Source: Oligoflexia bacterium
Lineage (GTDB): Bacteria > Bdellovibrionota > Bacteriovoracia > Bacteriovoracales > Bacteriovoracaceae
Assembly (NCBI GenBank): GCA_015231955.1
Contig: JADGAN010000011.1
Coordinates: 62,001 to 126,000 of the forward strand
DNA length: 64,000 nt
Reading direction: 5' to 3'
Position numbers and translations under genes: made by a program. The notes beneath the pieces are model-generated. The model was not told the origin of the DNA and did no database searches. It saw only the letters and a list, made by a program, of their open reading frames with translations. Positions 22,828 through 44,234 of this stretch are shown piece by piece. Every line of letters starts with the position of its first letter. Position 1 is the first letter of the stretch.

Positions 22828-25800
22828 ATGTTTCAACTCATAAAGTTTCTGCTTGTGTTGCTTTTAACCCTCTCTTATTCTTGCTCTCTCTCTTTTGCAA
22901 AGAGTACTGCTACTACGACAGATGATCTCTTAAAACAGATAGAGAGTGCTGAAGAGAGTAAGCTTCCAAAGAGAGCGCTAGAGCTAGCACAAAAACTAGA
23001 GCTTGCCGCTAAAGCAGAAGATAAAAAAGGACTTTATGTGCGTGCTATTGCTAAACGCATTTTAAACCAGTGCCACATTCTTGGGAAGATGCCAAAAGAC
23101 AAAATACGCATCCTCCAAGCAGAAATTGCTAAAGTAGACATGGAGTCACTCCCACTAGTAAAACTCATCCTCGCTAAATGGTTTTGGCACTACTACGAGC
23201 AAAATCGTTTTAAATTTGCAGAGCGTACCCAAGTGCAAGCTGGCAGCAGTGACGATAAAGATGACGATTTTACTACCTGGGATTTAAACAAAATCCAAAG
23301 AGAAATTCATCATCTCTATCAGGAGGTATTAAAAGACAAATCTGCATTAAAAAAGATCAAAATTTCCGATTATGAAGGAGTAATCGAAGGTGGGAATATT
23401 TTCAACACCAAGACTACAACTCTTTATGAGTTTGCACTCCTGGAGATGATTCAATTTTTTAAAGCTAGTGATCAACCAGCACTCCCACTCTACCAAGAGT
23501 TAGTCTACTATTATCAACAAAACAATTTCGTAGAGGAACTAATCACTATAAAGGTCGCTCGCCTTAAATACCTCTATGCTGATACCGCTGATCCCGCAAA
23601 AAAAGCAGAGCTTAAAAAAAGTTTAACTTCCCTGATCGCAAAGCATGCTGCTCTTGCCAGCTCTGCACTTGCAAGTCATGAACTAGCACAAGCTTTTTAT
23701 GATGAGCAAGAGTTCAGCAAGGCGGCCCTAGTCTGTGAAAAGGCAATCGAAAAACATGCGAACTCCGATGGAGGAAAACTGTGTGCCAACCTCACTCATC
23801 AAATTAAAAGAGCACACTTTTCCATCAAAACTGAAAGCTCCATTAATGAAGACAATTCCACACTCAGCATAAGCTATAAAAATATCTCTAAAATCTATTT
23901 TCGCCTCATCGCAGATACCACACCTATACCTAAAGCTTTCCCCGATCTCAATACTCTACTGAAGCAGACTACAATCAAAGAGTGGTCTATCGAGCTACAT
24001 CCGACCAGTGATTACAAAGAGGCCTTAGAGATTTTCCCTCTACCAGAGGTGCCTCACGGTTTTTATCACCTCTTCGCCTCCTCTGCTCCCGATTTTAAGC
24101 AAAAAGCAGATTTACATTTGAGCTACACCTCGTTTTGGAGAAGCGATTCCCTCTTGCTCATTAAAGAGGAGAATCAAGCACTCAAAGGTTTTGTGCTTGA
24201 TGCTCACACAGGAGCGCCCTTGTCGGATACCACCCTCGAGGTTTATGAAAATAACCAGCAAGATCACTATCAAAAAGTCGCTACCACCAACACAAATGGT
24301 GATGGCATTTTCAGCTACGAACCTTTGGCCAAGCAAAAATCTTACCTCAACTTAGGCCGATACTTTAAAGTCATCTCTCCCCAAAATGGAGATACGCTTT
24401 TCACCTCTTACTTGCAGCAAAACCCAAGCTTGCAAAAGCATCAAGGGACAAAGGCGTTAATCCTCACCGATCGTGCAATTTATCGCCCCTCACAGCGTAT
24501 CCACTTTAAAGTGATCTGCTACTCTTTTGACCAAGAACGAGAGCAGTATGCAAGCAAACAATGCAAAAACCTCGAAGTAAAACTCTACGATAATAACCAA
24601 CAAGAGCTTGCGAAAATGGTAGGCAATGCTAATGAGTTTGGCTCCTTTGCTGGCGATTTTCTGATTCCCGCCCATACGCTACTTGGCGACCTCTCTTTAC
24701 GAACCTCCTCGCCCACAGGCGAAGCACAGGTCAAGGTGGAGGAGTATCGTCGTCCTAAATTTGAGATCACCCTCACCCCACCAGTGGCCCAGTTTCGCTT
24801 AAATGATAAAGTCTCCATCAGTGGCAAGGCGGTTACCTATGCAGGCGCTCCTCTCCCTGCCACTTCGAGAGTTAAATATCGCATTGTACGCAACGTGGAG
24901 ATGCCCCCCTGGTGGTTCTATTGGAAAATGCTCCTCCCCTCCTCTAAGGCAATGGAGCTAGGTCATGGAGTAACCAGCTTAAATGATCTGGGTGAATTCT
25001 CGCTTAGTTTTGTTGCCACTCCCGACGCTAAAATTGATCCTAAAAGCAAACCGCACTTTACATTTAACCTTGAGGTAGAGGTCACCGATGCCACTGGAGA
25101 GACCCACGCTCAAAGTTTGGAGTTTAAATTAGGGTATACTGCTCTAAGTGCAACCCTTAGTAGCATTGATTGGTTACTAGAGGAGTCTCCTACTGCTATC
25201 ACCATCACCACCACTACGCTTGATGGAAAGGAGTGTGCTGCCAGTGGTACCCTACAAATTTTTGAGCTGCAAGCTCCAGCTAGGCCCAAACGTACGGCCA
25301 CGACCACGACCATGGCCATGGCCAAGCCCCTTGCCAAAGAGATCATTGCTTCTTGGCCCCAAGGAAAATTGCTCGAATCGCAAACTTTTGCCACCTCCCT
25401 CGATGGAAAAAGCACGCACTCCTTTAAACTTAAAAGCGGTGCCTACGTTGCCATCCTCACCAGTAAAGACCAATTTGCACAAGAGGTTATAGAAAAACAC
25501 CACTTCATTGTTTTTAATAAAGAGGAGTTTAAATTACCACTCCCCTCTTTTTTCACCTTAAATAAAACTAGCTTTGCTCCCTCTGAAAAGCTAGAGGCCT
25601 TATGGGCCACTGGTTATGGCAGCGGTCGTGCTTATATCTCATTCTTACAAAATGGCAAAAGCTTTAAATCCTACTGGACAGCAAAGAACAGTGGCCTTCA
25701 CTTTATCAACTTACCCATCACCAAGGAGCACCAAGGTGGATTCACACTGCAAATCTTATTCGTGCAGGAAAACCAAATCTATTTTTACAACCAATTGATC

Positions 25801-29175: not shown

Positions 29176-29730
29176 ATGGAAAGAGAAACTGAATTTTTAA
29201 CTCACTGTTTTTCCGATTCCTATTATGAAATACGCAATGAGATGTTGAAATGGGTTCGTAGGCGTTGGCATCTCGATCGAGCTACAATTGAGGATGTGGT
29301 TTCAGAGGGGTTTATGCGAGGTTGGCAGTGGCGTGAACGATTTGAATCAATAGACCACGCTAAAAACTGGATACATAAGAGTATCAATAATCTTATCATC
29401 TCCCATTTTCGCAAACAGCGGCACATTCTATATTTGGGAGAATTAAACTTAAATGAAGAAAGTGATCATGGAAAATATATCGCCTACTATTTCCATATCA
29501 GTGCTAACCATGAGAATCAAAATCATACTCTACAAAGCGAGTATCGCGAATTGGAAAAGTTGTTCGATAATTGCAAAAATCGGCAAAGGGCCAAAGTGGC
29601 GGTGTTGTATTATAAGCAGGGTATGAGTGTAGCAGAGATCGCTTATGCGCTCAAGATGAAACAGAACACAGTGCTCTCACATATTTATCGCTTTAGAAAA
29701 GATGCTAAAGTACTCTTCGCTGACGCATAA
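29176..29730 (+). CDS. ECF-type sigma factor
   Basis: The 184-residue product has the two conserved regions of extracytoplasmic-function sigma factors: region 2 at about 25-80 (TIEDVVSEGFMRGWQWRERF, then WIHKSINNLIISHFRK, where the -10 element is recognised) and region 4 at about 135-180 (SVAEIAYALKMKQNTVLSHI, a helix-turn-helix). No anti-sigma gene is next to it, and no clear ribosome site is visible before the ATG. It is convergent with the operon at 29747-36337 (16-base gap). It may control the neighbouring exported-protein operons, but that is only a guess from position. Confidence 0.8.
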   Translation: MERETEFLTHCFSDSYYEIRNEMLKWVRRRWHLDRATIEDVVSEGFMRGWQWRERFESIDHAKNWIHKSINNLIISHFRKQRHILYLGELNLNEESDHGKYIAYYFHISANHENQNHTLQSEYRELEKLFDNCKNRQRAKVAVLYYKQGMSVAEIAYALKMKQNTVLSHIYRFRKDAKVLFADA

Positions 29731-29746
29731 AATGCATCACTAAAGA

Positions 29747-31288
29747 CTACTCTTTAAAAAATCCAACATAAGACCAGGGGTTTGGATCTCCTTCGAGATA
29801 AATTTGGTAGCGCAATAATGTTGCTTTGGAATCCTCAATGCATGGAAGATTAAGGGGTACTCCCGGTTGATCACACTTTCTTGTTAAAATGTGAGTTAGG
29901 TGATCAAGAATTGTTTCTTGCTTACTCTTGGGTAATGAAAAAAATTCTGAGGCAAAGGGAGTTGGTGGTGTTCCTGCTTTAGGGGTGAGATAGGCCAAAA
30001 TAATCTGCTTAGAATTCTCTTCTTGGGTTAAGGCCACTTTTAAGGCCTCTTCATTAAAGTCTGTTTTCAAGTTTAAAGGCGCGCGCATGGCCCTATCTTG
30101 ATCGATCATCTTTGAAAGAATGCGAGTGCGAACAAGAGAGAGAAGCTCTGTTTGCAAGAGAGATGAAGTGGGGGTGGTGATTGTAGTCGTAAGAAGTTTG
30201 CCAAAACTTTGCGAAGAGGGATTCATCGTCGTCCACGCGGTAGTAAACGATTGCTCAAAGCGCGCCTTTAATCCAATTAAGACTCGCTTAAAAAGAGTTT
30301 CACGACATTTGGCCCCTGCCTTGGTATAAGGGAACTCTTCGCCAAGATCTTGAAGCGATCCAATCCAACCCGCTTCATGCCACGATAAGAGCATGCGAGA
30401 GTCGGTTCCTCCTATCACACCATCATCAAAGGGACAAAGACTTTGGGTAAAGAGGTCTATTTTTTGATGACGTGTAGGGTGAAGCAGACCTTCTCGTGCT
30501 AATTGTGTGTAGCTTTTGCTCATCACTGTAATAGAGATATTACTTAACTCTTTAAAGAGACTTTTCTGGCATCCCGTTTTAATGAGGTCATCGACAGGAC
30601 CTGGAATTGTTAAAGTGCTCTCTCGAAATTCTAGAGCAAAACATTGGGTAAATAATCCACGCAGAAGTGCCACGCGATCTTCGCTAAGCGCGCTGCCGCT
30701 GGTATCTGTTATCTCTAAGGCCGGTAAATTTTTTTCTCTCTCCTTATCGTAAAAGTCGTTAACGCTTAAGTCTTCCCAGCTTTTTTCAAGGAGACTCCAA
30801 TGACGCCAAAAGGGTGGAACCCTTTCTGGTGGCAGCAGTTGCAACTTTCCGGTGTCTGTGCCTGTGTTCGTAGTTGAACGATCTTGGGCGCTGACAATAA
30901 TCTTTCTCGTGCGATCATCCCCACTACTCTCATCTGCAAGAGTAGTGAGCTGTTCGCTCTTTAATGCCTTTAAAACTTCCAGCATTTGAGAATAACCGCT
31001 ATGGTGTTCATCCCAAAGTTTTGCAGAATCGTGGGAAGCCTTAAACGATAGTTCAACGGCCCCAACCGCAATCGTATCGGAGGGAGCGGCCTTAAGCTCA
31101 AGTTTTCCGATCTTTACTGTGGAATCGGGATCATTGATAGCAGGCGCAGGTGTCGGTATAGATCCAAGATTGGGATTGGACCCGGATCCAGACCCGGATC
31201 CAGAATCGGAACCGGAACCGGAACAAGAGAGTAATCCCAATACCAGAGACATGGTCATGATCAGAGCGATAAATCTTTTTTTTCTCAT
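29747..31288 (-). CDS. lipoprotein, paralogue of the protein at 33079-34548
   Basis: The 513-residue product has a lipoprotein signal with the lipobox LLSC (cysteine about residue 22), followed by a Ser-Gly repeat (SGSGSDSGSG) and a Pro-rich linker, so the body is tethered on a flexible stalk. From about residue 75 it is similar along its length to the exported protein at 33079-34548. Shared blocks include LPALEITD, EDRVALLRG, QCFAL, LHPTRHQK, SLCPFDDGVIGGT and KAGAKCRETL. Conserved Cys (in QCFAL, IKTGC, SLCP, AKCRETL) suggest disulfides. I know no family for it. It is the last gene of the leftward operon, 32 bases after its neighbour, with a GAGAGGG ribosome site. Confidence 0.75.
   Translation of the reverse strand: MRKKRFIALIMTMSLVLGLLSCSGSGSDSGSGSGSGSNPNLGSIPTPAPAINDPDSTVKIGKLELKAAPSDTIAVGAVELSFKASHDSAKLWDEHHSGYSQMLEVLKALKSEQLTTLADESSGDDRTRKIIVSAQDRSTTNTGTDTGKLQLLPPERVPPFWRHWSLLEKSWEDLSVNDFYDKEREKNLPALEITDTSGSALSEDRVALLRGLFTQCFALEFRESTLTIPGPVDDLIKTGCQKSLFKELSNISITVMSKSYTQLAREGLLHPTRHQKIDLFTQSLCPFDDGVIGGTDSRMLLSWHEAGWIGSLQDLGEEFPYTKAGAKCRETLFKRVLIGLKARFEQSFTTAWTTMNPSSQSFGKLLTTTITTPTSSLLQTELLSLVRTRILSKMIDQDRAMRAPLNLKTDFNEEALKVALTQEENSKQIILAYLTPKAGTPPTPFASEFFSLPKSKQETILDHLTHILTRKCDQPGVPLNLPCIEDSKATLLRYQIYLEGDPNPWSYVGFFKE
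31176..31223. repeat. in-frame period-6 repeat encoding the Ser-Gly stalk
   Basis: Eight hexamers of the type CCGGAT / CCAGAC / CCGGAA follow in register within the lipoprotein gene and encode, on the minus strand, alternating Ser-Gly (with Ser-Asp). Interruptions show partial decay; copy-number change would alter the stalk length without breaking the frame. Confidence 0.85.
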
Positions 31289-31320
31289 AATCCCTCTCTA
31301 CTAAATTTAAGCAACAAATG

Positions 31321-32403
31321 CTAAAGACAAGGTAAAAAAGCACCATTAGAGCTGCGATGAAAACAAATATTGGTGGCCAAAGGAAAGTCTGTAATAAAAA
31401 TCGCTGAGGTTGAGGTAGCGGCCGCTGTGACCGTTACAAGCGTTCCTGCAATGGAGAACGGAAGATTTAGACGGCCTCGATGCTTTTTGAGTGATCGCAC
31501 TCCATGACTCGTTAGAAGCAATGTTAATGAGGCCTTACCTTGAAGAGAGTCCTCTAAGAGGAAATCGCTCTTGGGTAAGAAAGGAACAACTCCTTCGACG
31601 TCGATATCGCCGGTACTCGCTTGAAGCAGAGAGTGCCCAGCATTTAATTGAAGAAATTTTATAGAGGGATTAGGCATGAACTGTTGATAGCGCTTTAGTG
31701 CCTGAACCGTTATTGCTTCCAATCCAATCTGAATGGGAAGCTGTAAGCGTCCTCCGGGAGAGGCATAAAATTGGAAAAGGGTGATTGGCCACTCAGTAAG
31801 AAATTCTGGCGAGGTCGCAGGAGAGGTTTTGAGTTGATGCTTTTCAAAGATTCGGTGAAAACGATGAAGCTGAGTTAGGCGCGTCTCTAGCGACACTTGC
31901 TCCCCAGCTTTGGCCAATAACGCTTCATAATTTGTTTGGATCTCTCGCCACTTGCGCAGCTGTTCTTCAAAGAATGGCCTTAAAGTGCTTGGTGCTGTTT
32001 GGGCCTGAAATTCCAGCTCTTGAACTCGCTCACTAATCATATCTACGCTCTTGACGTAGTGATTGCCGGCCAAAACTTTAAGCGCATCTCGAACCTCTTG
32101 CTCATCTGCTTGCAACGAGGAGTCGATAGTGAAGATGATCTCTTCACTGCGATCAGAGTCAGAGGCCAAGAAGGCCTTCGGTGTGACGTAAAGAGTGAGA
32201 GGAGTAACTCCGGCGCTCGTATCACTTAAGATATTTAACGTCATCAGCGCTGAGGCCTCACTCAGAGTGAGATCGCCGCTAGTGGTCATCTCATGGAGAC
32301 GAGGCAGCTCTGTAGGAACAATCTCGGCCGTCACGAGTATGGGTGAGAAGAGAAGGGTAAGCGCTAAGAGCGGTAACCCTGCTCTAGAAGGTTTGGGTTT
32401 CAT
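31321..32403 (-). CDS. exported protein sharing a module with the 34592-36337 protein
   Basis: A 360-residue protein with a signal peptide (LPLLALTLLFSPILVTAE). The middle (about 130-200) is helical and charged; the C-terminal part is beta-rich. HGVRSLKKHRGRLNLPFSIA resembles GFNSLKSHARAKKPYNLPIR in the protein at 34592-36337, and the surrounding strands match in pattern, so the two share a domain. Function unknown. GGAGCTAA upstream is its ribosome site, and its ATG directly abuts the stop of the gene before it. It is the fourth gene of the leftward operon. Confidence 0.7.
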   Translation of the reverse strand: MKPKPSRAGLPLLALTLLFSPILVTAEIVPTELPRLHEMTTSGDLTLSEASALMTLNILSDTSAGVTPLTLYVTPKAFLASDSDRSEEIIFTIDSSLQADEQEVRDALKVLAGNHYVKSVDMISERVQELEFQAQTAPSTLRPFFEEQLRKWREIQTNYEALLAKAGEQVSLETRLTQLHRFHRIFEKHQLKTSPATSPEFLTEWPITLFQFYASPGGRLQLPIQIGLEAITVQALKRYQQFMPNPSIKFLQLNAGHSLLQASTGDIDVEGVVPFLPKSDFLLEDSLQGKASLTLLLTSHGVRSLKKHRGRLNLPFSIAGTLVTVTAAATSTSAIFITDFPLATNICFHRSSNGAFLPCL

Positions 32404-33048
32404 TTAATTAGCTCCATTTGTTGTCCGCTTGAGGTAATCGATAACTGCATCGACGGCCGCAATTTGACAAGGTAACTTGGAAAAAAATTGGTGCTCCTCT
32501 TGTAGTAAGGCCTCCCACGCCTCCTTTTTTTGCCCAAACTCCACCATCGCAAAGAGTTGCTCTTTGCGAAGACTACTTAAACCGCTAGGAGGCAAGTTGC
32601 GAATAGCTTCGGCCAAGGAGACCTCTTTTAAGATGGGAAGCACATACTCTTGGCAATACTTCACCCTCTCTCCAAGCGCTCTTCTCATGTTTTCACTTAA
32701 TTGCTGCTCACACTTATCCGAGACTGCGTGAAAGCGTTGGATATAACCAACAAGCCATCCCGACTTATAACCGGCCACATAGTAGTCACCCGGTGGTACT
32801 CGAAAATGAACTGCAGTATGAAAGAAGGTTTGAACTGCAGAGGAGTTGATTGTAAGAAAAGTGCAATCATCGATAAAAAAGTGGTCAAAATAGGAGCGAC
32901 CATCAGCAATTCCTAGCATGAGGCCTTCATTTAAGAGCATGATCATCTCCAATAGAGCGTCGTGATCATCATCCTCCGCGGCCGTTGCTGCTGAAGATGG
33001 AGGAAGCGAAGAGAAAAAAAAGAGTAACAAAAAGAGCAGGAATTTCAT
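32404..33048 (-). CDS. small exported helical protein with Cys residues
   Basis: The 214-residue product has a signal peptide (MKFLLFLLLFFFSSLPPSSAATAA). The mature part is mostly helical with Cys in DDCTF, DKCEQQ, KYCQEY and PCQIAA. A GYKSGWLVGY segment resembles similarly placed GY..G helices in the proteins of the rightward operon (37525 and 40562), a loose pattern and not proof of homology. Not recognised otherwise. An AAGGATG site precedes the ATG; 30 bases separate it from the upstream gene. Confidence 0.65.
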   Translation of the reverse strand: MKFLLFLLLFFFSSLPPSSAATAAEDDDHDALLEMIMLLNEGLMLGIADGRSYFDHFFIDDCTFLTINSSAVQTFFHTAVHFRVPPGDYYVAGYKSGWLVGYIQRFHAVSDKCEQQLSENMRRALGERVKYCQEYVLPILKEVSLAEAIRNLPPSGLSSLRKEQLFAMVEFGQKKEAWEALLQEEHQFFSKLPCQIAAVDAVIDYLKRTTNGAN

Positions 33049-33078
33049 GAGTGCATCCTTGGCCTAATAAATAAACGC

Positions 33079-34548
33079 CTATAAAAGGGCCGCAATATCA
33101 AACCACAAAGTGGAGTCGCTTTGGAGTTTAATTTGAAAGCTATAGATCCCAACTGTGGAGTCTTTAATGCATTTCCCTTTTCCCTCGGTAATAATCGGCC
33201 CTACATTATCGCGTGGACATTTTCTGGTGTAGAGAGAGGTAAACTTTTTCAGTACTAGCTGCTGCTTCTCCGTGGAAAGTTTCTCCAATGCCTTGGCAAA
33301 CTGACTCGGAACAACGACAGTCGAGTTAGGATTGGTCGTAGAGGGAGAGTTTCTAGCGACGAGAAGATACGCTTTAAGCGCTTTAGCTAAATTGGGGCGC
33401 ACCCCTTCACTGACATCTTTTTCAATGCTCATTTCTAAAGCAATACGATTGACGTCTCTGGGGTTAAACGCCTCATTCATCGAAGCCTCGTCTAAAACTT
33501 TAGGCAAGAATTTTCTTTTGGCCAATCTTATCATCGTTTCTAGAGGAAGTAAGGGACGATCAATACCCACCTCTACTAAGTGGTCAACAAAACTCTTTCC
33601 TGTTATATTTAGACTCTCTATCGTCGACGAAAACGATTCTTGAAAACGGGTTTTAAGCCCAATCATGACCTTTTTTAAGAGTGTCTCTCGACATTGCGCT
33701 CCTGCTTTAGAGTAGGGTTGTTCTCCCAGATCTCTTGCAACCCAGTTGGCCTCTTGAAGAGAGAGTAAAAGTTGCGGATTGGTTCCTCCGATCACTCCAT
33801 CATCCAAGGGACATAAGCTTTGAAGAAAGAGGTCGAGCTTCTGATGGCGTCTTGGATGAAGTGTCCCCTCCATGGCCAAATCCCAATAACTCTTATTCAT
33901 TACTTTGATTGAGACATCCTGTAGCTGCTCTAAGAGAGGAGCACGACAACCCTCTTGAATGATCGGTTCATAGTAGCTGGGAATTTTTAATCCTGGTTCT
34001 CTAAAGGCCAGCGCAAAACATTGGGCAAAGACTCCCCGTAATAGTGCTAAGCGATCTTCATCGAGTGCTGCTCCATTGGCATCGGTTATCTCTAAGGCCG
34101 GAAGTTTTTTTTCCAAATTTTTGTCAAAGAAGTGGAGCTGGCTTAGCTTTTGCCACTCCTGTTCGAGTGTACTCCAACTCTTCCAGAAGTTGGGGATTCT
34201 TTCATCGTCTTCATTTAAAAGCTGTAGGTGAGTAACCCACTCTGAGCGAACTGCAAGGAAGTATTCATTAAGATCATTTCCTCGATACCCACGGTAATCG
34301 ATCTTCAAACCCTCTTGTTCAATCGCTTTAAGGAGTTCTCCCATTCTCCCCACGTTACTATGGTTTTGGTACCAGATTTGGGAGTACATGGAGTTTCCTT
34401 TTAAGACGATCTCAATGGTGTTTTCCGCTTGAGTCGATGGCACGGCAGTTATCGAGAGAGTTCCTCCTTCGGGTTCAGCGCAGATAGGAGAAGAAAAAGA
34501 GGAGGAAAGCAGTATTAAACAAGATAGAGTTAAAATTTTTTTTTTCAT
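33079..34548 (-). CDS. exported protein, paralogue of the lipoprotein at 29747-31288
   Basis: The 489-residue product carries an ordinary signal peptide (ILLSSSFSSPICAE) rather than the lipobox-plus-stalk of its paralogue. Identity to the paralogue is highest from about residue 115 to 300 (FWKSWSTLEQEW, LPALEITDANGAAL, RHQKLDLFLQSLCP, DDGVIGGTNPQ, SKAGAQCRETL). Conserved Cys positions suggest a disulfide-stabilised helical domain. One paralogue is membrane-tethered and the other soluble or secreted, which suggests two locations for the same activity. The function is not known. It has a GAGAG ribosome site and lies second in the leftward operon. Confidence 0.75.
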   Translation of the reverse strand: MKKKILTLSCLILLSSSFSSPICAEPEGGTLSITAVPSTQAENTIEIVLKGNSMYSQIWYQNHSNVGRMGELLKAIEQEGLKIDYRGYRGNDLNEYFLAVRSEWVTHLQLLNEDDERIPNFWKSWSTLEQEWQKLSQLHFFDKNLEKKLPALEITDANGAALDEDRLALLRGVFAQCFALAFREPGLKIPSYYEPIIQEGCRAPLLEQLQDVSIKVMNKSYWDLAMEGTLHPRRHQKLDLFLQSLCPLDDGVIGGTNPQLLLSLQEANWVARDLGEQPYSKAGAQCRETLLKKVMIGLKTRFQESFSSTIESLNITGKSFVDHLVEVGIDRPLLPLETMIRLAKRKFLPKVLDEASMNEAFNPRDVNRIALEMSIEKDVSEGVRPNLAKALKAYLLVARNSPSTTNPNSTVVVPSQFAKALEKLSTEKQQLVLKKFTSLYTRKCPRDNVGPIITEGKGKCIKDSTVGIYSFQIKLQSDSTLWFDIAALL

Positions 34549-34591
34549 AATGCTCTCATTTGATATGAAGTGATGATACTATGTATGGTGT

Positions 34592-36337
34592 TTATGAAGG
34601 AGTTAAGTCTCCGCTAGTACTCTCTCTAGTCTCGATTTTAGAGTTACTATTTCCTTGATCATACTCTTCAGAATTTTGGCAAGGTATTCCCGGTCTCTCG
34701 TCATCGTTTGTGAACTTCACACAAATTTGATCAGGGAGATCGACCATCCGATCAAAGTTTTTATCGACGTTATAGGTAAACTCGCGATCGAGTACCACTT
34801 GTTGATCAAACTCTTTCTTACGAATATAGTGGAAGGGCATTTGCGTCTTGTAATATTGAAGTACCAGATGCTCTATTGTACGACACTCTTGATGTTCTCT
34901 AGAAACGCGAGCTAGGCAAGCACCAAAGATTTTGTTCACACAGACGGTGGTAATCACCCTCTTGCACTCATTGGATAGGTGTTTTCCCCAGATTTGGTGC
35001 CACTGCTCTGGCATCACCGATTTATGGTGTCCGGCCTCTTGGTTAATTAACTGCTCTAGCATCTCATCGCGCATCTGTAAGCTTGCCTGCTTAAGTTGCA
35101 TGAATTCACTAACAAATCTCTGTTTTGCATCTTGAATGAGATTTAATTCGGAAGCATCAAATTTACCGTCTTCCCTCAACTTATCATCGTTGCAGCTAAT
35201 ATTATCGGCCGAAAATTGTGGCTTATCGGTGACTGGAAAGTAGAGATCGTCGTTGGCGTACTTCTTAAGCTCTACCTTTAAATCACCAGCAAGGCGTGTA
35301 TCGAAGTGGCACTTAAGAGTGGCACTAATGGTGTTGGGAATAAATACCTTAGTTACTGCACGAATGGGAAGGTTATAAGGCTTTTTCGCCCGTGCATGGC
35401 TTTTTAAGCTATTAAAGCCCACGTTACTCATTTCAAACTCGATGGTTCCACCATTAAGTGAAATCGAAAACCTTCCATTTCTAAAGAGGTCGGCCCCGAA
35501 AATCACACTATCAATAGGCGAGGACTCCACGGTTGTTCCCGTATTATCGGTCACCGCTCTCTGTGAGAGGTTTTGTAAAGTTAAGGTAACAGGCTCAAGC
35601 GAGGAAAGCTTTTGAAAGCGGAGGTGAGGATTTTTTGCTCTAAATTCGTTAAAAAACGCAATCTGCTCCTCTGTAAAACCGCTGACTAAGGAGATCCCAA
35701 ATTTGTGACGCCCAAGGGTTTTGGATCGTCGAACAAGCGTCTTTAGTTGCCCATCATCCACATCAGAGGGCGCAACAAAGCCATTAACAATAAAGGCCTG
35801 GATAATTCCTGTCTTATAAAGATCTTTTTGAGTGGCGTTTAAGTAGGCAAATGCCCTATCTACTGTTTGCCCGGCCACGGCTTCAACTTGATAAGGGAAC
35901 TTCAGTGGGGTAGGGGTAAGGGAGTCTTTCTCTGAAGCGTAGGTGGGTACGGTGGCCGCTGTAAAAGCACTATCGGTATTACCGGAGAACGGACCGGTTT
36001 TAAAGGCCTCATCGGCAAGCGCATCAGTCACATCTTTTACTCTCTTATTCCACTTGCGGGTATCACGAAAGACCTCCATTGCATCCTCCTCTTCAAACAT
36101 GGAGGCGCCATTTCGACCGACTCTAAGTGTCGGTGTCCACCAGAGAAGGTTGGGATCATCAGTGTCTTTATAGAGTACTAATGAGGACATAAAGGATTGG
36201 ACTTTATTACTAAGCCCTTGTGTATTTAGTTCCTCAGGCGGTAGGGCCATCGGAGCTGCAAAGCTTGAATTGATACTAAATCCTATTCCTATCAACGCTA
36301 AAAGCCCTTTGCTAACAAAGGATGACCCGTTTTTCAT
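34592..36337 (-). CDS. exported protein, first gene of the leftward operon
   Basis: I place the start at the ATG at 36337 (581 residues), where GGGAG gives good spacing and a signal peptide follows (LLALIGIGFSINSSFAAP); a longer frame from 36553 would run through the promoter region. The N-terminal half is mixed, the middle is beta-rich with GFNSLKSHARAKK, a module also in the 31321-32403 protein, and the last third is helical with clustered Cys (NECKRV, TTVCVNK, FGACLARV, HQECRT). The tail is Ser/Asn/Glu-rich. No family is recognised. It faces the rightward operon across a 181-base divergent region. Confidence 0.75.
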   Translation of the reverse strand: MKNGSSFVSKGLLALIGIGFSINSSFAAPMALPPEELNTQGLSNKVQSFMSSLVLYKDTDDPNLLWWTPTLRVGRNGASMFEEEDAMEVFRDTRKWNKRVKDVTDALADEAFKTGPFSGNTDSAFTAATVPTYASEKDSLTPTPLKFPYQVEAVAGQTVDRAFAYLNATQKDLYKTGIIQAFIVNGFVAPSDVDDGQLKTLVRRSKTLGRHKFGISLVSGFTEEQIAFFNEFRAKNPHLRFQKLSSLEPVTLTLQNLSQRAVTDNTGTTVESSPIDSVIFGADLFRNGRFSISLNGGTIEFEMSNVGFNSLKSHARAKKPYNLPIRAVTKVFIPNTISATLKCHFDTRLAGDLKVELKKYANDDLYFPVTDKPQFSADNISCNDDKLREDGKFDASELNLIQDAKQRFVSEFMQLKQASLQMRDEMLEQLINQEAGHHKSVMPEQWHQIWGKHLSNECKRVITTVCVNKIFGACLARVSREHQECRTIEHLVLQYYKTQMPFHYIRKKEFDQQVVLDREFTYNVDKNFDRMVDLPDQICVKFTNDDERPGIPCQNSEEYDQGNSNSKIETRESTSGDLTPS

Positions 36338-36440
36338 ATGTATACACTCCCTTTTACAGATAAAAAATTTATTGACTCTCTTGGCAAGCACTTCGTCTTC
36401 AAAGGGTGAATACGTTTGAAGCACAATAGATATTGCAGAA

Positions 36441-36469
36441 ATTGCACAAAAAATAAATTCAAGTGCAAT
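36441..36469. promoter_or_regulatory. inverted repeat between the divergent operons
   Basis: ATTGCAC at 36441-36447 is mirrored by GTGCAAT at 36463-36469, a perfect seven-base inverted repeat with a 15-base spacer. A related TATTGCAG lies just upstream. It sits in the 181-base gap between the two oppositely oriented operons and could bind a dimeric regulator controlling both. No convincing -35/-10 pairs could be assigned. Confidence 0.45.
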
Positions 36470-36518
36470 ATTACAAAATCTTGTGCGTATTAACTTTTGT
36501 ATAAACGAGGATAATAGG

Positions 36519-36959
36519 GTGATAAAAAAATTTTCTATTCTTATCAGTATCATCTTGATCGTGATCGTGATTTTTACGATTGCTGGTTTACTAAGGAGAA
36601 CATCAAATCAAGATTCGGAGGCATCAAATAGTTTGACTGTCGTCAAAGGCAATCTTGCTCCTACACTTATGAATGCGGAACAATCTTTTCCCCTTGTTGG
36701 CAGCAGTAAAAATGAAAGTGAAAGTGAGAGTACTACCGTTACTACGGCCGTTGATGAGATTGATGAGTTACCAGCTGCTCCTCCTAAAGTGACGCCTCAT
36801 AAACCGCCTAAGCGAAAAATTATCAACCATCCTAGACTTGGTAAGGTGGTCGAGATTGTTTATGAGACCGGAGATGTTTTATATGAACCGGCCGATCCGG
36901 TTGTAGAATTTGGTTCTAATGGACCAAGGGTCATTGAAATTGAAGAAGAGGGATCATAA
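36519..36959 (+). CDS. membrane-anchored protein, first gene of the rightward operon
   Basis: The start is taken as GTG at 36519 (146 residues), because GAGG lies eight bases before it; an earlier in-frame GTG at 36483 lacks such a site. One N-terminal helix (ILISIILIVIVIFTIAGLL) anchors a mostly disordered periplasmic part: a Ser/Glu-rich run (ESESEST, encoded by a GAAAGT repeat at about 36714-36731), then a Pro/Lys-rich linker (PPKVTPHKPPKRK) and a short ordered end. The arrangement resembles anchor proteins that reach across the periplasm. Function unknown. Confidence 0.65.
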   Translation: MIKKFSILISIILIVIVIFTIAGLLRRTSNQDSEASNSLTVVKGNLAPTLMNAEQSFPLVGSSKNESESESTTVTTAVDEIDELPAAPPKVTPHKPPKRKIINHPRLGKVVEIVYETGDVLYEPADPVVEFGSNGPRVIEIEEEGS

Positions 36960-36961
36960 CC

Positions 36962-37528
36962 ATGAAACGATTGAAAGTCGCTACTTCTCTGTTTCTGCTG
37001 TTGTTTGCTGTCGAGGTGATAGCATCGGAACTCATCGATTTAAACCTCTGTGTGCGCTATCAGCGCTTAGGAGGAGTAGAAGCGATGGCCTTGGTGAAAA
37101 TGGGTTTTCCATCTCTGGAAGATGGGGCCCGACCAAGTGATGAAGCGTGTGAACGCATTGATACCTTTTTTGAGAATGTGGTTCGCGCGATTTTATTGCA
37201 TTCATCTTCATCAAACGGATCTCTCTCCTCAAACGATTGTTGGCTAATGGGCGCCTTTTCAGGGGCCTATCAACAAAAATTCCTCTTGGAATCGCTCTGT
37301 GGAAAACTTCCTCCCATCGATTTAAATCTTGTAAGAGTAGCGTGCGATCACAAAGCCAGAGAGATTCTGGCGACGGGGTGTGATCGTGAAGGCAGAATCG
37401 ATCGGCAAACTCTCTTAATGCTACAACAGTTGAGTGAGAAGAGTGTGGCTTCATCGGTGTGCCAAAAGGCAATCAATCAGCGGATGATCATCAGTGCAAT
37501 GAATGGAGATTGTGGAGGAGGAAGATGA
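36962..37528 (+). CDS. small exported Cys-containing helical protein
   Basis: A 188-residue protein with a signal peptide (FLLLFAVEVIASE). The mature part is helical and carries paired Cys (LNLCVRY, EACERID, NDCWLMG, ESLCGK, RVACDHK, TGCDREG, SSVCQKA) that look like a disulfide-rich fold. I do not recognise a family. It starts two bases after the preceding gene with GAGGG as ribosome site, and its stop overlaps the next gene's ATG. Probably part of the same envelope machinery as its operon partners. Confidence 0.65.
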   Translation: MKRLKVATSLFLLLFAVEVIASELIDLNLCVRYQRLGGVEAMALVKMGFPSLEDGARPSDEACERIDTFFENVVRAILLHSSSSNGSLSSNDCWLMGAFSGAYQQKFLLESLCGKLPPIDLNLVRVACDHKAREILATGCDREGRIDRQTLLMLQQLSEKSVASSVCQKAINQRMIISAMNGDCGGGR

Positions 37529-38364
37529 GGAAGATGATGAAAATGAAAAGTCGTTTTTTAAGAAAGTTCATACTAGGGTTTAGTCTTGTTCTTGGCTTAA
37601 ACCTTAACCTTATCATGGCCGCTGAACAACAAAATCTTCCCAATACAGTTCTTCAACCTCTATCGCCTTTTGAACAAGGGGTGTGTCGTACTATGCGCCG
37701 AGATGGAGCAAGGAATGCTCTCATCAAGCTCACCCTCTCGGGAAGCGATTGCGAGCAAATTCTCAATACCTTTGATGCTCTTGCGAGTGAGCGTTTAAAA
37801 CAGGTGGCCGATCCGCAAGGAGCAAATCTCTTACAGCGCTGTTTTCTCGCGGGTTATAGAGAAGGGGTAGTGACAGGTTTACAAAACACATTAGAGTTCT
37901 GTTTATCTACGGCCGATCTTGCTGCAAAAGCAGGGTATGTGCTTGGGCGTACCATCTGTTTTCTCCAAACCAAAGCTTATCCGGTTATTATTTTGCAATT
38001 GACTGCAGAAACAGAGCGAGGGGATAGTGGATACGATCCGAAGAAATTTATCTTTACTACCGATCCCACCATCGTTTGGGGAAAAGTTTTAGAGCACTCC
38101 TCATCTTTTGGTTTTGCGGCCGGATGTTTGATGGGAGAGAACGATTATGTCAATGGTAAGAGCTATAGCAATGAGGGCGTCATTGTCGAGGATAAAGATC
38201 TACCGTGCTATGCCGGCGATAAGGTGGGATCTGCTCTCGGAAAAGCGTACGGTGGCAGCTTTACTCCCGATCTACAAGCGATAGCAACAGCAGTTCCACA
38301 AGCAGTGCAGGCAGATTTTTTAAAAGGTTTACAACAAGGATGGAATAGAGGGGAGAGCAGATGA
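37525..38364 (+). CDS. exported Cys-containing protein of unknown function
   Basis: The chosen ATG at 37525 overlaps the previous stop (ATGA) and has GGAGGAGG before it, giving 279 residues; a frame from 37459 would add 22 residues that precede the signal peptide (FILGFSLVLGLNLNLIMAAE). The N-terminal half contains GVCRTM, GSDCEQI and LQRCFLAGYREGVVTG, and a second part has GRTICFLQTK and GFAAGCLMGEN. The CFLAGY..G helix pattern recurs in several neighbours. Function unknown; likely periplasmic. Confidence 0.65.
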   Translation: MRKMMKMKSRFLRKFILGFSLVLGLNLNLIMAAEQQNLPNTVLQPLSPFEQGVCRTMRRDGARNALIKLTLSGSDCEQILNTFDALASERLKQVADPQGANLLQRCFLAGYREGVVTGLQNTLEFCLSTADLAAKAGYVLGRTICFLQTKAYPVIILQLTAETERGDSGYDPKKFIFTTDPTIVWGKVLEHSSSFGFAAGCLMGENDYVNGKSYSNEGVIVEDKDLPCYAGDKVGSALGKAYGGSFTPDLQAIATAVPQAVQADFLKGLQQGWNRGESR

Positions 38365-38855
38365 ATGCACGTCTATTGGCAATAATCACCATCGTGGTGG
38401 TAACCATAGTAACCGTTAGCGTGTTTACCTTATGGCCTGAAAAGCAGCAGGAGCGAGTCGTTTTTAAAGGCCAGGTAGATACAATAAACTCGGACTTGAA
38501 CCCGAACTCGAATTCGAATTCGAACGATGTCTTAAAAATGGCCAAGAAGACACTACAACAGGTACAGCTTGAACTGGCGCGCGCCAAAAAAGAGGAGGCG
38601 CAGATAACCGGTTTACCAGCAGAAACGCTCCAGCATTTGGATGAATTAGATAAAATGAAAGAGAATTTACAAGCATTGGACTTGAAGCTTACCTCTTTTG
38701 CTAAAGAATTAAAGCAGATTAAAGAGCGAGAGAGTGCTTATGTTTTAAACAAGAAGATAAAAGATATAAATATAGAGGAAGAGATTACCCTGGCAGAAAT
38801 GAAGCAGCAATTGATCAGAGATTTATCAGAGTGGACTAAATTAATAACCGATTGA
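38361..38855 (+). CDS. membrane-anchored coiled-coil protein
   Basis: A 164-residue product with one N-terminal helix (LLAIITIVVVTIVTVSVFTL) and a periplasmic part made of a Ser-Asn repeat (NPNSNSNSND) and a long coiled coil (about residues 60-135, heptad-like Leu spacing in ELDKMKENLQALDLKLTSF). The ATG overlaps the preceding stop. The protein looks like a periplasmic strut or adaptor for the exported proteins of this operon. No known family recognised. Confidence 0.65.
   Translation: MNARLLAIITIVVVTIVTVSVFTLWPEKQQERVVFKGQVDTINSDLNPNSNSNSNDVLKMAKKTLQQVQLELARAKKEEAQITGLPAETLQHLDELDKMKENLQALDLKLTSFAKELKQIKERESAYVLNKKIKDINIEEEITLAEMKQQLIRDLSEWTKLITD
38487..38525. repeat. in-frame period-6 repeat encoding a Ser-Asn run
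   Basis: AACTCG/AACCCG/AATTCG hexamers repeat in register and give NSDLNPNSNSNSN in the coiled-coil protein, between its membrane helix and coiled coil. The run contains consecutive AATTCG units. Copy-number changes would lengthen the linker without a frameshift. Confidence 0.85.
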
Positions 38856-38877
38856 TGATTGATCTGGAGATATACTT

Positions 38878-40545
38878 ATGTTTGTTTATAAAATCGCCAA
38901 GATTGCAACCAAGTCTTTGTTAATAGTGTTAGTTGCGCTCTCAATGCAACAGTTTGCGTATGCAGAGATGTTGTTGCCGATGTACAATTATAAACTTCCT
39001 TTTATCAAAGGACTTGGAAATAAACTCTATCCTGGTGTGATGGTCAATACCACTAGTGATGGAAATTTTTACGTTCAACCCACCACTACTATCTTTTATG
39101 AACCCTCCTTAGCGGAGGTGGTGGCCAAAGATAAGGCGGTTTCGGTGGCCGCCAACTGCCCGGTCGTTAAAATTGAGTTGGATAATGAGCTCGCTTTAGC
39201 ACAAGCGATGCAAGGGTTGATCAACATCTTAAAAAGTAGTGAGATAAATTTAGATCAGAAGATTATTAAACAGGCCCAGGCCTCAGGTCAGTGCTCCTAC
39301 TGGAATACCATCGCTGAGACCAAACAAGAGGTCATGAATGTTCGAAGAGAGGCATTAAGCCCGTTGGTGATCAAATTGCAACTGAAAGAGGCCGATTTGC
39401 AAACTTGCAAAATTCTCCATTCAGCTGCTCCGACAGAGTGTGATCCCATACGTAATGAGATCCAGAGCTTAAAATTGGAGATAGTGCAACTAAATGGGAA
39501 GCTACAAGAAGCGATAACAGAGTGGTTGCAGGCCCGACAATCAGGGGCCCCTCACTGCGCTAGTGCCGCCTCCTATTTACGAGAGATCAACGAGATCACG
39601 CAAGCGATTGCTGGAATTAGAGGAACAATTCTGACCATGCAAAATCAGGTGAGTGAGACTATTATTCGCATGGGTGAAGAGTATGGTGGTAGTGCGGGCG
39701 CGGTCATCTCCAATCATGCTCGCAAACAGCAAGAGGAGCTAGAGAGGGCCAATCCAGGTTATATTTTCCGCCCTATCGACGCTAAAAAGGTGTATTTCCA
39801 TTTTCTTCCCGAGGCCCAGGATTGGGATAAAACCATTCGTCGTCGTACGGTGATCGGTGTTGCCGTCCAAGGTGCGACAACCTCTGCAGGTACTTCGCTC
39901 ACCGACTCCTTCGCACGTCAAGTGGTCTCTGGCAATGGAGGTAGTGCCGTTCTCTTAACGCTATCTCGTCTAGGAGCTTGCTCCGATAAGCTGGTGCGAG
40001 CAGCAGGCTTTAACTATGAGTACAATGCTTATAGCTACCTTAAAGGGGCAGCTACCTATAATAAATGGGCCACCTATACTAAGATCGAATCCACCAAGAG
40101 GACAGGGGGCTTCCTTAGCAGTAAGACCGTCCACGATCTTTATGAAGATATGAGAGCAGGACAAGGATTTTCCTTTGCATTAGAGACCGATGACCCCAAT
40201 GTCGATGCGGAAGCGATGAAAGAGGCGATTCGTCAGCGCCTCTTAAATCAGATCTTAACCGATTGGGCGATGGTTGCAGAGATGAGCAATGGTGGTTCGC
40301 TCACGCGACCAGGGAATAGTGCCCATGGAGCACAAGTCTTAGCGGATGGGGTATTAAAAGTGTGTCCTCACATCTACTGTGTGGCCGGGGCCTTAGTCTT
40401 AAAAACCTTGGATGCGATCTTTGGTAGTGATGTCGCTAGAGAAGATGTCAAGAAAATTTGGGACGTCAAGGCGAGCGAACGCTTTGCTTGGAATAAAGTT
40501 TATACCCACCATGGAAGCTCTTCGACACTCGTTACTTGGAGATAA
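38878..40545 (+). CDS. large exported coiled-coil protein
   Basis: The 555-residue product has a signal peptide (LIVLVALSMQQFAYAE). Residues about 125-270 form a long coiled coil (ISLKLEIVQLNGKLQEAITEW-like pattern), followed by a globular part from about 290 that contains GVAVQGATTSAGTSLTDSF and a C-terminal Cys pair (KVCPHIYCVAG). A GGAG site precedes the ATG. It is the largest protein of the rightward operon and, by its length and coiled coil, the likeliest structural core of the system. No family recognised. Confidence 0.7.
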   Translation: MFVYKIAKIATKSLLIVLVALSMQQFAYAEMLLPMYNYKLPFIKGLGNKLYPGVMVNTTSDGNFYVQPTTTIFYEPSLAEVVAKDKAVSVAANCPVVKIELDNELALAQAMQGLINILKSSEINLDQKIIKQAQASGQCSYWNTIAETKQEVMNVRREALSPLVIKLQLKEADLQTCKILHSAAPTECDPIRNEIQSLKLEIVQLNGKLQEAITEWLQARQSGAPHCASAASYLREINEITQAIAGIRGTILTMQNQVSETIIRMGEEYGGSAGAVISNHARKQQEELERANPGYIFRPIDAKKVYFHFLPEAQDWDKTIRRRTVIGVAVQGATTSAGTSLTDSFARQVVSGNGGSAVLLTLSRLGACSDKLVRAAGFNYEYNAYSYLKGAATYNKWATYTKIESTKRTGGFLSSKTVHDLYEDMRAGQGFSFALETDDPNVDAEAMKEAIRQRLLNQILTDWAMVAEMSNGGSLTRPGNSAHGAQVLADGVLKVCPHIYCVAGALVLKTLDAIFGSDVAREDVKKIWDVKASERFAWNKVYTHHGSSSTLVTWR

Positions 40546-40561
40546 TTGGAGATAAAAGAAG

Positions 40562-41344
40562 ATGAAAAAAAATATTTTGTTTATTATGCTTATCTTAATA
40601 GTAGGGGTGGCGATTGTAGAAGGGATAGTGTCTGCGTTTGCTGAGAATAGTGAAGAGAATCCTCTTTATCAAAAGGGTGTCCGCGATGCTCAAAGAAGAG
40701 TGAACCAAGTGGGAATCGATCTTACTTGTGAAACTTTAGGTAAAAAATTTCCGACCGATCTCTCTTATCCCGAGGCCGGCACGGAAGGGGCGATTCCTCC
40801 TTACATCTTAGGTTACTATCGTGCCTACGCCAAAGCGTGGGAGTCTCGTCGGCAGGAGCTCTTAAAAGAGTGCGTGGAGCAAGTGATTATCAATACTCCT
40901 CAAAACTACGATGTCCAACAAAAGGTCAAAGAACGGATGCGCGAGCTCTTACAACTTTTGCGCGCCTCCTTGGATAAGTTGCAAACGCTAGCGAAGTGTG
41001 TGCCCTTATCGGTTCAATACATTCCGCACGGTATGACCTTTTGTACCTATGAAAAGGCGGCCCTGGTGTTGCAAAATAGTAGCGGTAATCAACAGGAGCA
41101 ATATCTTATGTACGCCTTAGTGGAGAGTTTTGATGTCCGTAGTGTTGAGTCTCAAAGAGTGGTGCTTCAAAAAAACCACAAGGCGATTTTAGCGGATCAT
41201 AATCGCGTAGTAACACAAAAGATTTGTACCACACTTAAAAAAGCAAATTTCACTCGTGCCGACCTTCTGGGAGTGCAACGAGATTTGACGAAAATGATGA
41301 CGATCGATGAAGAGGGTGATCTCTTTACACGACCTCTCTACTAA
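40562..41344 (+). CDS. exported helical protein
   Basis: The 260-residue protein has a signal peptide or anchor (FIMLILIVGVAIVEGIVSAFAE). The rest is mainly alpha-helical with Cys in DLTCETL, KECVEQ, AKCVPL and FCTYEK. YILGYYRAYAKAW is another instance of the aromatic, small-residue helix seen in neighbours. A GGAG site lies before the ATG. Not recognised. Confidence 0.65.
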   Translation: MKKNILFIMLILIVGVAIVEGIVSAFAENSEENPLYQKGVRDAQRRVNQVGIDLTCETLGKKFPTDLSYPEAGTEGAIPPYILGYYRAYAKAWESRRQELLKECVEQVIINTPQNYDVQQKVKERMRELLQLLRASLDKLQTLAKCVPLSVQYIPHGMTFCTYEKAALVLQNSSGNQQEQYLMYALVESFDVRSVESQRVVLQKNHKAILADHNRVVTQKICTTLKKANFTRADLLGVQRDLTKMMTIDEEGDLFTRPLY

Positions 41345-41372
41345 TTACTTACATATAATCTCGGAGAAAATA

Positions 41373-42074
41373 ATGGAGAGTTATATCAAACAAATAGTTC
41401 TTGTCGTTGTTCTTACTCTTATTGGCCTACCCGTAAGAGCAAACGGTATTGATCTGAGCGAAATGATTCCAGCAGAGTATAAAAAATTGCCAGTGATGCC
41501 TAATCTTACCTCTTTTACCTCAGCAGATAAGGCACGTTGTAAAGCGGGGCTAAGGATAGGCGATTTTCTGGGACGAGAGTTTATGGCCAAGTTTCCTGTC
41601 GATTGTTCTAACTTGCTCATTCCCCTTGCCGATGAATGGGTGGTTCCCTTAGCAGATTACCGAGAAATCAACCCGCTCAATCTCTGCTTCAACTACGCCT
41701 ACACCAATGCCGTTGCCCAAACGGTATTGAATACGGCCATGCTTTGTGCAGACTTAGTAGATCAGAATTTCAAATTAACAATGCAGATGGAGTACAATCG
41801 TTGTTACTTGCAAGTTGCTAAACACCTAACCACAATCAAACTGGTTTTTAACAGTGTTGATGTCAATCTAGGTGGAAGTTATATCGTAATTCCCAAAGAT
41901 AGTGAGGAGTGGGATAAGTTTATCGACAGTTTGACAATTACTCTCGATGAACGAGGAAGGGCCGACTCCTCTGGAAATTTAAAACAAGCGTGTAGTCTTG
42001 GTATCGCAGACGCAACCATGAAGCGCGATCCGGCCAATATTTTTTTAGGAACAAGAATTCCGTTAGGTAATTAA
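41373..42074 (+). CDS. exported Cys-containing protein
   Basis: I start at the ATG at 41373 (234 residues), preceded by CGGAGAA, because the next residues form a signal peptide (QIVLVVVLTLIGLPVRANG); a frame from 41307 would place 22 extra residues before it and overlap the previous gene. Cys occur in RCKAGLR, VDCSNLL, NLCFNYAYTNA, MLCADLV and NRCYLQV. No family recognised. It is seventh in the rightward operon. Confidence 0.65.
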   Translation: MESYIKQIVLVVVLTLIGLPVRANGIDLSEMIPAEYKKLPVMPNLTSFTSADKARCKAGLRIGDFLGREFMAKFPVDCSNLLIPLADEWVVPLADYREINPLNLCFNYAYTNAVAQTVLNTAMLCADLVDQNFKLTMQMEYNRCYLQVAKHLTTIKLVFNSVDVNLGGSYIVIPKDSEEWDKFIDSLTITLDERGRADSSGNLKQACSLGIADATMKRDPANIFLGTRIPLGN

Positions 42075-42098
42075 ATAAAAAAAAATGAGGAGCAAAAA

Positions 42099-43016
42099 AT
42101 GATCGTACGACTGACATTATTATTAGTTACGACTATTATGATGAATAGTAATCCCTGCTACGGCGAGGATTGTGATGCGGTTTTACTCTCATCCAATGCT
42201 ACTGCGGTCACTTTGCATGAGCGTGGACAAGTGGTCTCTGAGTGTCTTACCTTAGCAAGCGAGATGGCACGTCTAGCGTACACCAATGCCTTTACTCTTT
42301 GTAAAAAGCACGCTGTAACTCGCATCTCTCCCACTGCAATCACCTTTCCTGATGGAGAGGTTGTCACGCCTCCTCCTACCATGATAACTTGGGAAGAGTT
42401 TGCAAAAGTGCTTGGAAGCAAAGGCAATAGCAGTGGTTGTCGTGACGGCATTCTATCCGCTCTCGTGCAAAAAACCTTCTCTAGCGTAGCTAGTGTACAA
42501 AATATTTTCACCAATACAGAGATGTTTTTAAGTGGTCCCTTTAATGGAGATTACGATGTGAAAGTGGGGGCCCCTCCCTTTTTTTCGATCACAGGCACGA
42601 TCCACATTACCGACTCCTCCTTAAGAGGGTACTTAACCGACGTATCGGGAGTTACCAGCAGTGATGATGGTAAAATTGCCATTTTTAATATGCCCTTTGA
42701 AGGAGAAGGGGTGCTTACCGCTAAGGCTCAATTTGCCTTGATCGATCTCGATAATGAGGCCCAATATTACAGCAAAGGGCATATCTCCGGTGAAGTAGAT
42801 GTCCCTACACTAACAGTCACCTTAAGTTATATGGATATCGATCAATTTGAGACCAGCGAGCAGGAGTTAAATGCATTTGGAAATGCCATTATCAATAAAG
42901 TGATCGCTCGTAATGAGTTAAAACATGGGATTTCGTATGAGCTTACTCGTATTCTTCGAAACTCTTATGAGGCCATCGATCCTTTTCACTTTATACAAAC
43001 GCTACCTCGTCAATAG
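42099..43016 (+). CDS. exported protein, last gene of the rightward operon
   Basis: The 305-residue protein has a short signal peptide (LTLLLVTTIMMNSNPCYGE; the cysteine at about 22 could also be read as a weak lipobox). The first half is helical with Cys (SECLTLA, TLCKKH, SGCRDGI); the second half, from about 150, is a run of beta strands (GTIHITDSSLRGYLTDVSG, GEVDVPTLTVTLSY) that resembles a lipid- or partner-binding sheet. A GAGGAG site is strong. Function unknown. Confidence 0.65.
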   Translation: MIVRLTLLLVTTIMMNSNPCYGEDCDAVLLSSNATAVTLHERGQVVSECLTLASEMARLAYTNAFTLCKKHAVTRISPTAITFPDGEVVTPPPTMITWEEFAKVLGSKGNSSGCRDGILSALVQKTFSSVASVQNIFTNTEMFLSGPFNGDYDVKVGAPPFFSITGTIHITDSSLRGYLTDVSGVTSSDDGKIAIFNMPFEGEGVLTAKAQFALIDLDNEAQYYSKGHISGEVDVPTLTVTLSYMDIDQFETSEQELNAFGNAIINKVIARNELKHGISYELTRILRNSYEAIDPFHFIQTLPRQ

Positions 43017-43253: not shown

Positions 43254-44234
43254 ATGTTTACACGGAACCAACTGACACTTTTCCTTTTATTACTCTGTGG
43301 CCACTTGCATTTTCATGCTGTTGCAAAGGCCGAAGATGAAAGACCGCTTTTTAGCTTTGGACTTTTAACTGATATTCAAGTACCCAGTCCAGAAAAAATC
43401 GGTAACAGTGCTTACGAAAAATATTTGAACAAACTAAAAATTGCCGTAGAGGCCTTTAACGCCTCCAATGTTGAGTTTGTGATTCAATTAGGGGATCTGG
43501 TTAATGAAGATATCCATAACCTAGATATAGTTTTAAACGAGTGGAATAAACTTAACAAACCCAACTTTCATGTGCTAGGCAATCACGATTTTTGTGTTGA
43601 AGATCAAGAAAAAACATTGATTGTCCCTAAGCTACAGATGCCTGGGAGGTACTACGATTTCTCCTCACAAGATGGCAGCTACCGCTTTTTGGTTTTAGAT
43701 GGTAATGACTTAAGCATCGGGGCCTATCCAAAGAACTCTCCAGAGCATGCAAAATCACAAGTGGCCTTTGAATATTACATGAAAGAGTTCTTGGACGGCA
43801 AAAGAAAATTTGTACCCAGAATTTATGAGGGAGGAATTGGTGAGACACAAATGAAATGGATCAAACATACACTCGACGATGCTCAAAATAAGGGGCAAAA
43901 AGTGATTCTATTTTGCCATCAGTTACTCTATCCCGTTGATGACCATAATCTTTGGAATGCAGATGATCTCAAACGTATTGTAGATCAATATGATAACATC
44001 GTCGCTTTTATGAATGGACATAAGCATACTGGGCTTCAGGCCAGTGATCAGCGTGGCGTAAATTATATCACCTTTAAATCAACACTTAATTCTAATACCG
44101 ATAGTCGCTTTTATATCATTGATGTTTATCCCGAACATTTTAAAATCAAAAAAGTGTCTGAGAAAGTTATGGACTACAGACAGTACCAGCAACATGCTCA
44201 AGAGCAACAGCAAGCTACACTACTAGAGGAGTAA
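43254..44234 (+). CDS. exported calcineurin-like metallophosphoesterase
   Basis: A 326-residue protein with a signal peptide (cleavage near AVAKAE). It has all metal-binding blocks of calcineurin-like phosphoesterases: GLLTDIQ, QLGDLVNED, VLGNHDF, LFCHQ and NGHKH. The DIQ variant of the usual DxH is typical of Mn-dependent ADP-ribose/CDP-alcohol diphosphatases, so a nucleotide-diphosphate substrate is likely. The C terminus is Gln-rich. CTGGAGG is its ribosome site. It probably works in the periplasm, perhaps in phosphate or nucleotide salvage. Confidence 0.85.
   Translation: MFTRNQLTLFLLLLCGHLHFHAVAKAEDERPLFSFGLLTDIQVPSPEKIGNSAYEKYLNKLKIAVEAFNASNVEFVIQLGDLVNEDIHNLDIVLNEWNKLNKPNFHVLGNHDFCVEDQEKTLIVPKLQMPGRYYDFSSQDGSYRFLVLDGNDLSIGAYPKNSPEHAKSQVAFEYYMKEFLDGKRKFVPRIYEGGIGETQMKWIKHTLDDAQNKGQKVILFCHQLLYPVDDHNLWNADDLKRIVDQYDNIVAFMNGHKHTGLQASDQRGVNYITFKSTLNSNTDSRFYIIDVYPEHFKIKKVSEKVMDYRQYQQHAQEQQQATLLEE

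Follow-up and report, generated by a model that had tools for sequence, protein, structure and literature searches.

h5 and its operon: a possible member of an unnamed exported-protein cassette of Bdellovibrionota

The 64,000-nucleotide stretch analysed here (the window; contig JADGAN010000011.1 of an Oligoflexia bacterium) contains, at 29747-43016, two divergent runs of tightly packed open reading frames (ORFs), five leftward (g1-g5) and eight rightward (h1-h8). Among their thirteen products, h5 is the sole member with a family, which we call F0: its relatives are about 20-25% identical to it, occur in about 42 of 369 Bdellovibrionota genomes, in eight families, and are encoded in compact runs of exported genes. 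The reading that we favour, tentatively and at close to an even chance, sees in the rightward operon a divergent member of a cassette of exported proteins that has no name as yet and was probably exchanged horizontally. The cassette would build an accessory assembly of the envelope or surface, with h5 at its core.

Up to 43% of the lineage-specific gene clusters in predatory bacteria and their relatives, and 37% of those in epibiotic predators, have no functional class (PMC11656739). The F0 cassette joins anonymous exported proteins of predators and relatives into a recurring unit with a clear core protein and motif. As the handle it offers has the size of an operon, and culturable predators (P. 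exovorus and Ca. B. qaytius) are among its carriers, the group is directly testable.

Gene models and export signals

A preliminary description of this locus proposed two divergent operons separated by 181 bases, and the ORFs lie as it placed them, the gap measuring 181 bases when h1 is read from the GTG at 36519. Gaps inside each run range from -4 to 43 bases; h2 and h3 overlap as ATGA if h3 starts at 37525, and h3 and h4 overlap by four bases. For g5, h3, and h7, the mechanically listed starts yield long products (653, 301, and 255 aa, respectively); better candidates are ATGs further inside, which have a ribosome-binding site before them and a signal peptide after them. The resulting features are as follows.

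29747-31288, minus strand: g1, 513 aa, probable lipoprotein (lipobox-like LLSC), paralogue of g4
31321-32403, minus strand: g2, 360 aa, exported
32404-33048, minus strand: g3, 214 aa, exported
33079-34548, minus strand: g4, 489 aa, exported, paralogue of g1
34592-36337, minus strand: g5, 581 aa, exported, without homologue
36338-36518, no strand: divergent intergenic region, 181 bases
about 36519-36959, plus strand: h1, about 146 aa, N-terminal membrane anchor followed by a low-complexity linker, probable GTG start at 36519
36962-37528, plus strand: h2, 188 aa, exported, 8 Cys, probably helical
about 37525-38364, plus strand: h3, about 279 aa, exported, Cys-bearing module common to h7
38361-38855, plus strand: h4, 164 aa, coiled-coil protein with an N-terminal membrane anchor
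38878-40545, plus strand: h5, 555 aa, exported, signal peptide, sole member with a family (F0)
40562-41344, plus strand: h6, 260 aa, exported, 5 Cys, probably helical
about 41373-42074, plus strand: h7, about 233 aa, exported, module common to h3
42099-43016, plus strand: h8, 305 aa, exported, weakly similar to h3 (z 5)

A sigma-70-like promoter was sought in the divergent region and not found.

All thirteen products had been proposed to be exported or anchored, and a strongly hydrophobic N-terminal segment is present in each of them (12-residue Kyte-Doolittle maximum 2.2 to 3.9), h3 reaching merely 1.66 because its mechanically listed start is too far upstream. None of the thirteen carries a second strong hydrophobic segment. 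This test is a loose one that 23 of 38 other window ORFs also pass, so that thirteen in a row are unusual (0.6^13, about 0.001), not astronomically so. The paralogous pair announced in the preliminary description corresponds to g1 and g4 (40% identity over 470 residues), and the module common to two other members to h3 and h7 (BLAST 2e-6, shuffle z 10.5). Two further relationships were noticed by eye and rejected: a module common to g2 and g5 is not significant (shuffle z 0.0), and neither is homology of g2 or g5 to h5, as judged against shuffles and decoys. Similarly, residues ~229-254 of g5 (NPHLRFQKL) line up with the F0 motif NPxYxF in an alignment that is not significant.

The absence of a recognisable family was borne out, as searches of the thirteen proteins against Pfam, NCBIfam, PHROGs, and PADLOC gave nothing above coiled-coil noise. 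In PDB sequence searches, h8 and g5 found nothing, the F0 family profile found coiled coils only, and g4 gave a weak match to designed armadillo repeats, to which we give no credence. The literature searched contains no description of the h5 cassette. For h5, its F1 partner in relatives (see below), and the other twelve proteins, the libraries, structures, and literature searched yielded no described family or system. Such divergence could nevertheless conceal adhesins or secretion accessories that evolve fast.

Homologues were also sought directly in 369 Bdellovibrionota genomes with joined queries of nine proteins, g1 being covered via its paralogue g4 only and the short anchors h1 and h4 being left out. 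No convincing homologue was detected for g2, g3, g4, or g5, nor for h2, h3, h6, h7, or h8, the queries returning just four short marginal matches (E 7e-4 or worse). The expectation of a conserved divergent thirteen-gene layout was therefore not borne out. In its own genome, g4 matches only g1 (44% identity). This host genome (5.6 Mb, 114 contigs) is the sole one of its genus among those searched.

Several other window genes were noted. Just upstream, 22828-28617 (plus strand) encodes a bacterial alpha-2-macroglobulin of 1929 aa (bMG10 and A2M domains), in which, by eye, LECSDYLFERL seems to stand in place of the thioester motif CxEQ. Directly 3' of h8 lies an exported calcineurin-like phosphoesterase gene (43254-44234, plus strand). 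Inspection by eye also points to an exported trypsin-like serine protease with a C-terminal extension (10346-12172, plus strand; IVGG start, GDSGGPL), an exported ankyrin-repeat protein of 364 aa (56493-57587, plus strand), and adjoining genes for TamB-like (795 aa) and TamA/BamA-like (645 aa) proteins (57884-62245, minus strand). Finally, an ECF-like sigma factor gene (29176-29730, plus strand; Sigma70_r2 E 1.6e-10) ends 16 bases from the end of g1. We rejected it as a dedicated regulator, as it is convergent and poorly conserved (one weak homologue in 57 related genomes).

The F0 family and its operons in relatives

A search with the single h5 sequence reached 11 of 96 genomes, counting the one that encodes h5, and at E 1e-3 the F0 profile had matches in 84 of the 369 genomes. 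About half of these 84 (~42) are convincing (E below 1e-17, long matches), the remainder being mostly coiled-coil matches. The membership of h5 itself is clear: it aligns to the type A profile over 509 columns (hhalign 99.9%), and a family model built without h5 recovers it with an hmmsearch E of 5.9e-58. Relatives include a Bacteriovorax stolpii MAG, a Bacteriovoracaceae MAG, and several Bdellovibrionales. Distribution is patchy, with F0 in 2 of 24 Bdellovibrio genomes and in 5 of 14 genomes of the epibiotic genus Pseudobdellovibrio; the latter proportion rules out the cassette as a marker of epibiotic predators.

A clear F0 homologue of 436 aa is also encoded by the Sinorhizobium meliloti conjugative plasmid NZ_CP066360 (E 2e-21, 31% identity with family member L082), and is followed by two further exported proteins. 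No other plasmid record searched contains an F0 homologue, and the phage records searched gave no match. On NZ_CP066360 (9171-33695), the cassette has in its vicinity genes whose annotations read caspase family, restriction endonuclease, and TrlF-family ATPase, and these surroundings resemble a defence-type cargo region.

Three operon forms were distinguished. Form A comprises F0, F1 (about 320 aa, ACDL motif near its centre), an anchored protein of 140 aa, and lipoproteins of 215 and 80 aa. Form B comprises F0a, an F1-like protein of 340 aa, F0b, proteins of 240 and 160 aa, a lipoprotein, and usually a leucine-rich repeat (LRR) protein. Two Bdellovibrio genomes and one relative carry form C. 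Profile comparison relates F0a, F0b, and the single F0 to one another (hhalign 97-100%), and likewise the 320-340 aa partners of forms A and B (hhalign 95-96%). The LRR proteins that end form-B cassettes (L022:7127-7930, L059:12658-13557, and equivalents) match LRR_4 with E 1e-12 to 7e-16 and are internalin-like in NCBIfam; in L082, a gene matching the same LRR profile (F7) divergently adjoins a form-A cassette. An N-terminal hydrophobic segment is present in 118 of 124 operon partners versus 197 of 376 control genes of the same loci (Fisher p 5e-21, a value that ignores the relatedness of the genomes and overstates independence, because the test is loose and the genomes are related).

The genes around h5 share the trait of exported or anchored partners seen in forms A, B, and C, as h1-h8 have N-terminal hydrophobic segments throughout. 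No window protein was recognisable as a member of the F1, anchored-protein, or lipoprotein partner families of relatives, and the F1 profile gave no convincing match to window proteins above decoys. Candidate counterparts of the relatives' partner genes (h1, h4, h6, h7, and h8) were rejected, as their matches cover the signal peptide or anchor only. Apart from h5, the window operon thus resembles those of relatives by layout, without recognisable homology. As its partners are not recognisably homologous, the window would carry a strongly diverged or differently composed form. The earlier proposal of an uncharacterised envelope machine is supported in so far as the h5 family occurs in compact exported operons across the phylum, and falls as regards conservation of the thirteen-gene order.

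Predicted architecture of h5 and alternative readings

F0 proteins have four invariant or near-invariant cysteines, and h5 retains C94, C368, C496, and C501 together with G410, G411, and E423. Among the best conserved motifs is a GG(F/L)(F/L) finger, followed by small and basic residues and present in 19 of 19 sequences compared, one SGLF and one RGFF variant included; it reads GGFL in h5 (410-413) and GGLF in the Sinorhizobium protein. The model of h5, folded with eleven relatives, is weak (pLDDT 65, pTM 0.34), although its helical hairpin at 95-269 is clear; a beta domain is predicted to come next. The L082 model, based on closer sequences, is better (pLDDT 80, pTM 0.50): a small N-terminal beta part precedes a coiled-coil hairpin (73-242) and a beta domain, in which strands 355-391 and 398-419 (37 and 22 residues) flank the finger turn; next comes a helical part holding a Cys pair, and a strand of 33 residues forms the C-terminus. 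For this family member, we thus predict with fair confidence a coiled-coil hairpin that leads into a beta domain, from which a long beta hairpin extends with the finger at its tip. Foldseek found no match of the L082 model in the PDB with E below 0.001. In VIA-align, rows mostly cover residues 75-335, and the hairpin alone aligns, to MacA, HlyD, and many unrelated coiled coils, because any long hairpin gives such matches.

Exported, disulfide-bearing, non-enzymatic in appearance, and always accompanied by exported or anchored partners, F0 looks from its sequence like part of an accessory envelope or surface assembly. In such an assembly, h5 would be exported, form its disulfides, and then present a coiled-coil stalk, each arm of which measures about 85 residues. 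The long hairpin of the beta domain would end in the conserved hydrophobic GG(F/L)(F/L) tip, for which either a membrane or a partner protein may be the docking site. Anchorage to the envelope would come from small partners, either single-span proteins or lipoproteins, and h2, h3, h6, and h7, all exported and rich in Cys, may pack around h5. The leftward operon may or may not be part of this assembly; if it is, it would supply further exported subunits under the same divergent control. The thirteen genes may act as one machine, which may work at the cell surface. As proposed earlier, its function may lie in prey or host contact, with a link to predation; the family does occur in epibiotic predators, but patchily there, in just 2 of 24 Bdellovibrio genomes, and also on the plasmid of a plant symbiont. 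A bolder version, which we consider quite improbable, has the cassette, exchanged by horizontal transfer that also took it to a rhizobial plasmid, build a hitherto undescribed contact organelle that spans the envelope of Bdellovibrionota. The coiled-coil stalk of this organelle would display a membrane-docking GGFF finger, and the window would hold an expanded, thirteen-protein version of it.

The most economical alternative restricts the unit to h1-h8: an h5 cassette would merely share its divergent control region with g1-g5, an unrelated, genus-specific orphan operon of exported proteins. This is a serious possibility, which we put at well under an even chance. It accords with the lack of convincing homologues of g2-g5 in the 369 genomes, with the known operon forms, none of which has a divergent arm of similar proteins, and with the lack of significant similarity between leftward and rightward proteins. 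On the other hand, all thirteen products are exported, and their genes are tightly packed around one common 181-base region; moreover, cassette partners change so rapidly that any homology could escape detection.

Returning to the rightward operon as an envelope or surface cassette, an unlikely alternative is that it is secreted and membrane-active or toxin-like: h5 would be released and oligomerise, its hydrophobic-tipped hairpin would enter a target membrane, and its partners would be chaperones, adaptors, or immunity factors. The long strands with their conserved GGFF-type tip, the LRR partner in form B, and a patchy and once plasmid-borne distribution, typical of accessory conflict genes, all fit this reading. 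However, the sequence flanking the tip is polar and lacks the alternating pattern of a membrane barrel, the structural matches are bare helical hairpins, and family-library searches gave no match to a toxin family. As regards alpha pore-forming or Tc-type toxins, the structural rows showed coiled coil alone, mostly within residues 75-335.

Comparison with known systems

Like the periplasmic adaptors MacA, HlyD, and LipC, F0 is exported and has a long coiled-coil hairpin emerging from beta structure. The hairpins of these adaptors align with residues 86-237 of the L082 model (Z 10.8-11.7, rmsd 1.5-1.9 over 87-90 residues), and small anchored partners are present in the operon, so that an adaptor-like conduit, with a MacA/HlyD-type hairpin bridging inner-membrane anchors to the outer membrane, can be envisaged; we judge it very unlikely, as the hairpin alone matches, in a common arrangement for which unrelated coiled coils score as high, the 12 family members scanned have no lipoyl or HlyD/MFP Pfam match, and the operons lack a transporter or TolC gene. 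F0 also differs from these adaptors in the very long beta strands that follow its hairpin.

The F-type type IV secretion system (T4SS) likewise includes a set of exported, often Cys-bearing accessory proteins (TraF, TraH, TraN, TraU, TraW, and TrbC) from an operon whose products are almost wholly exported, and the operons of the window and of the F0 family have the same composition. However, the window and family proteins have no Pfam match to TraF, TraH, TraN, TraU, TraW, or TrbC, and no conjugation ATPase or pilin was recognised beside F0 cassettes. Finally, predatory bacteria carry coiled-coil surface proteins in the form of the Mosaic adhesive trimer (MAT) fibres of Bdellovibrio, to which the listed matches of the PDB fold search include none. 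F0 differs from these in that its hairpin is predicted to be antiparallel within one chain, and in that it comes with an operon of exported partners.
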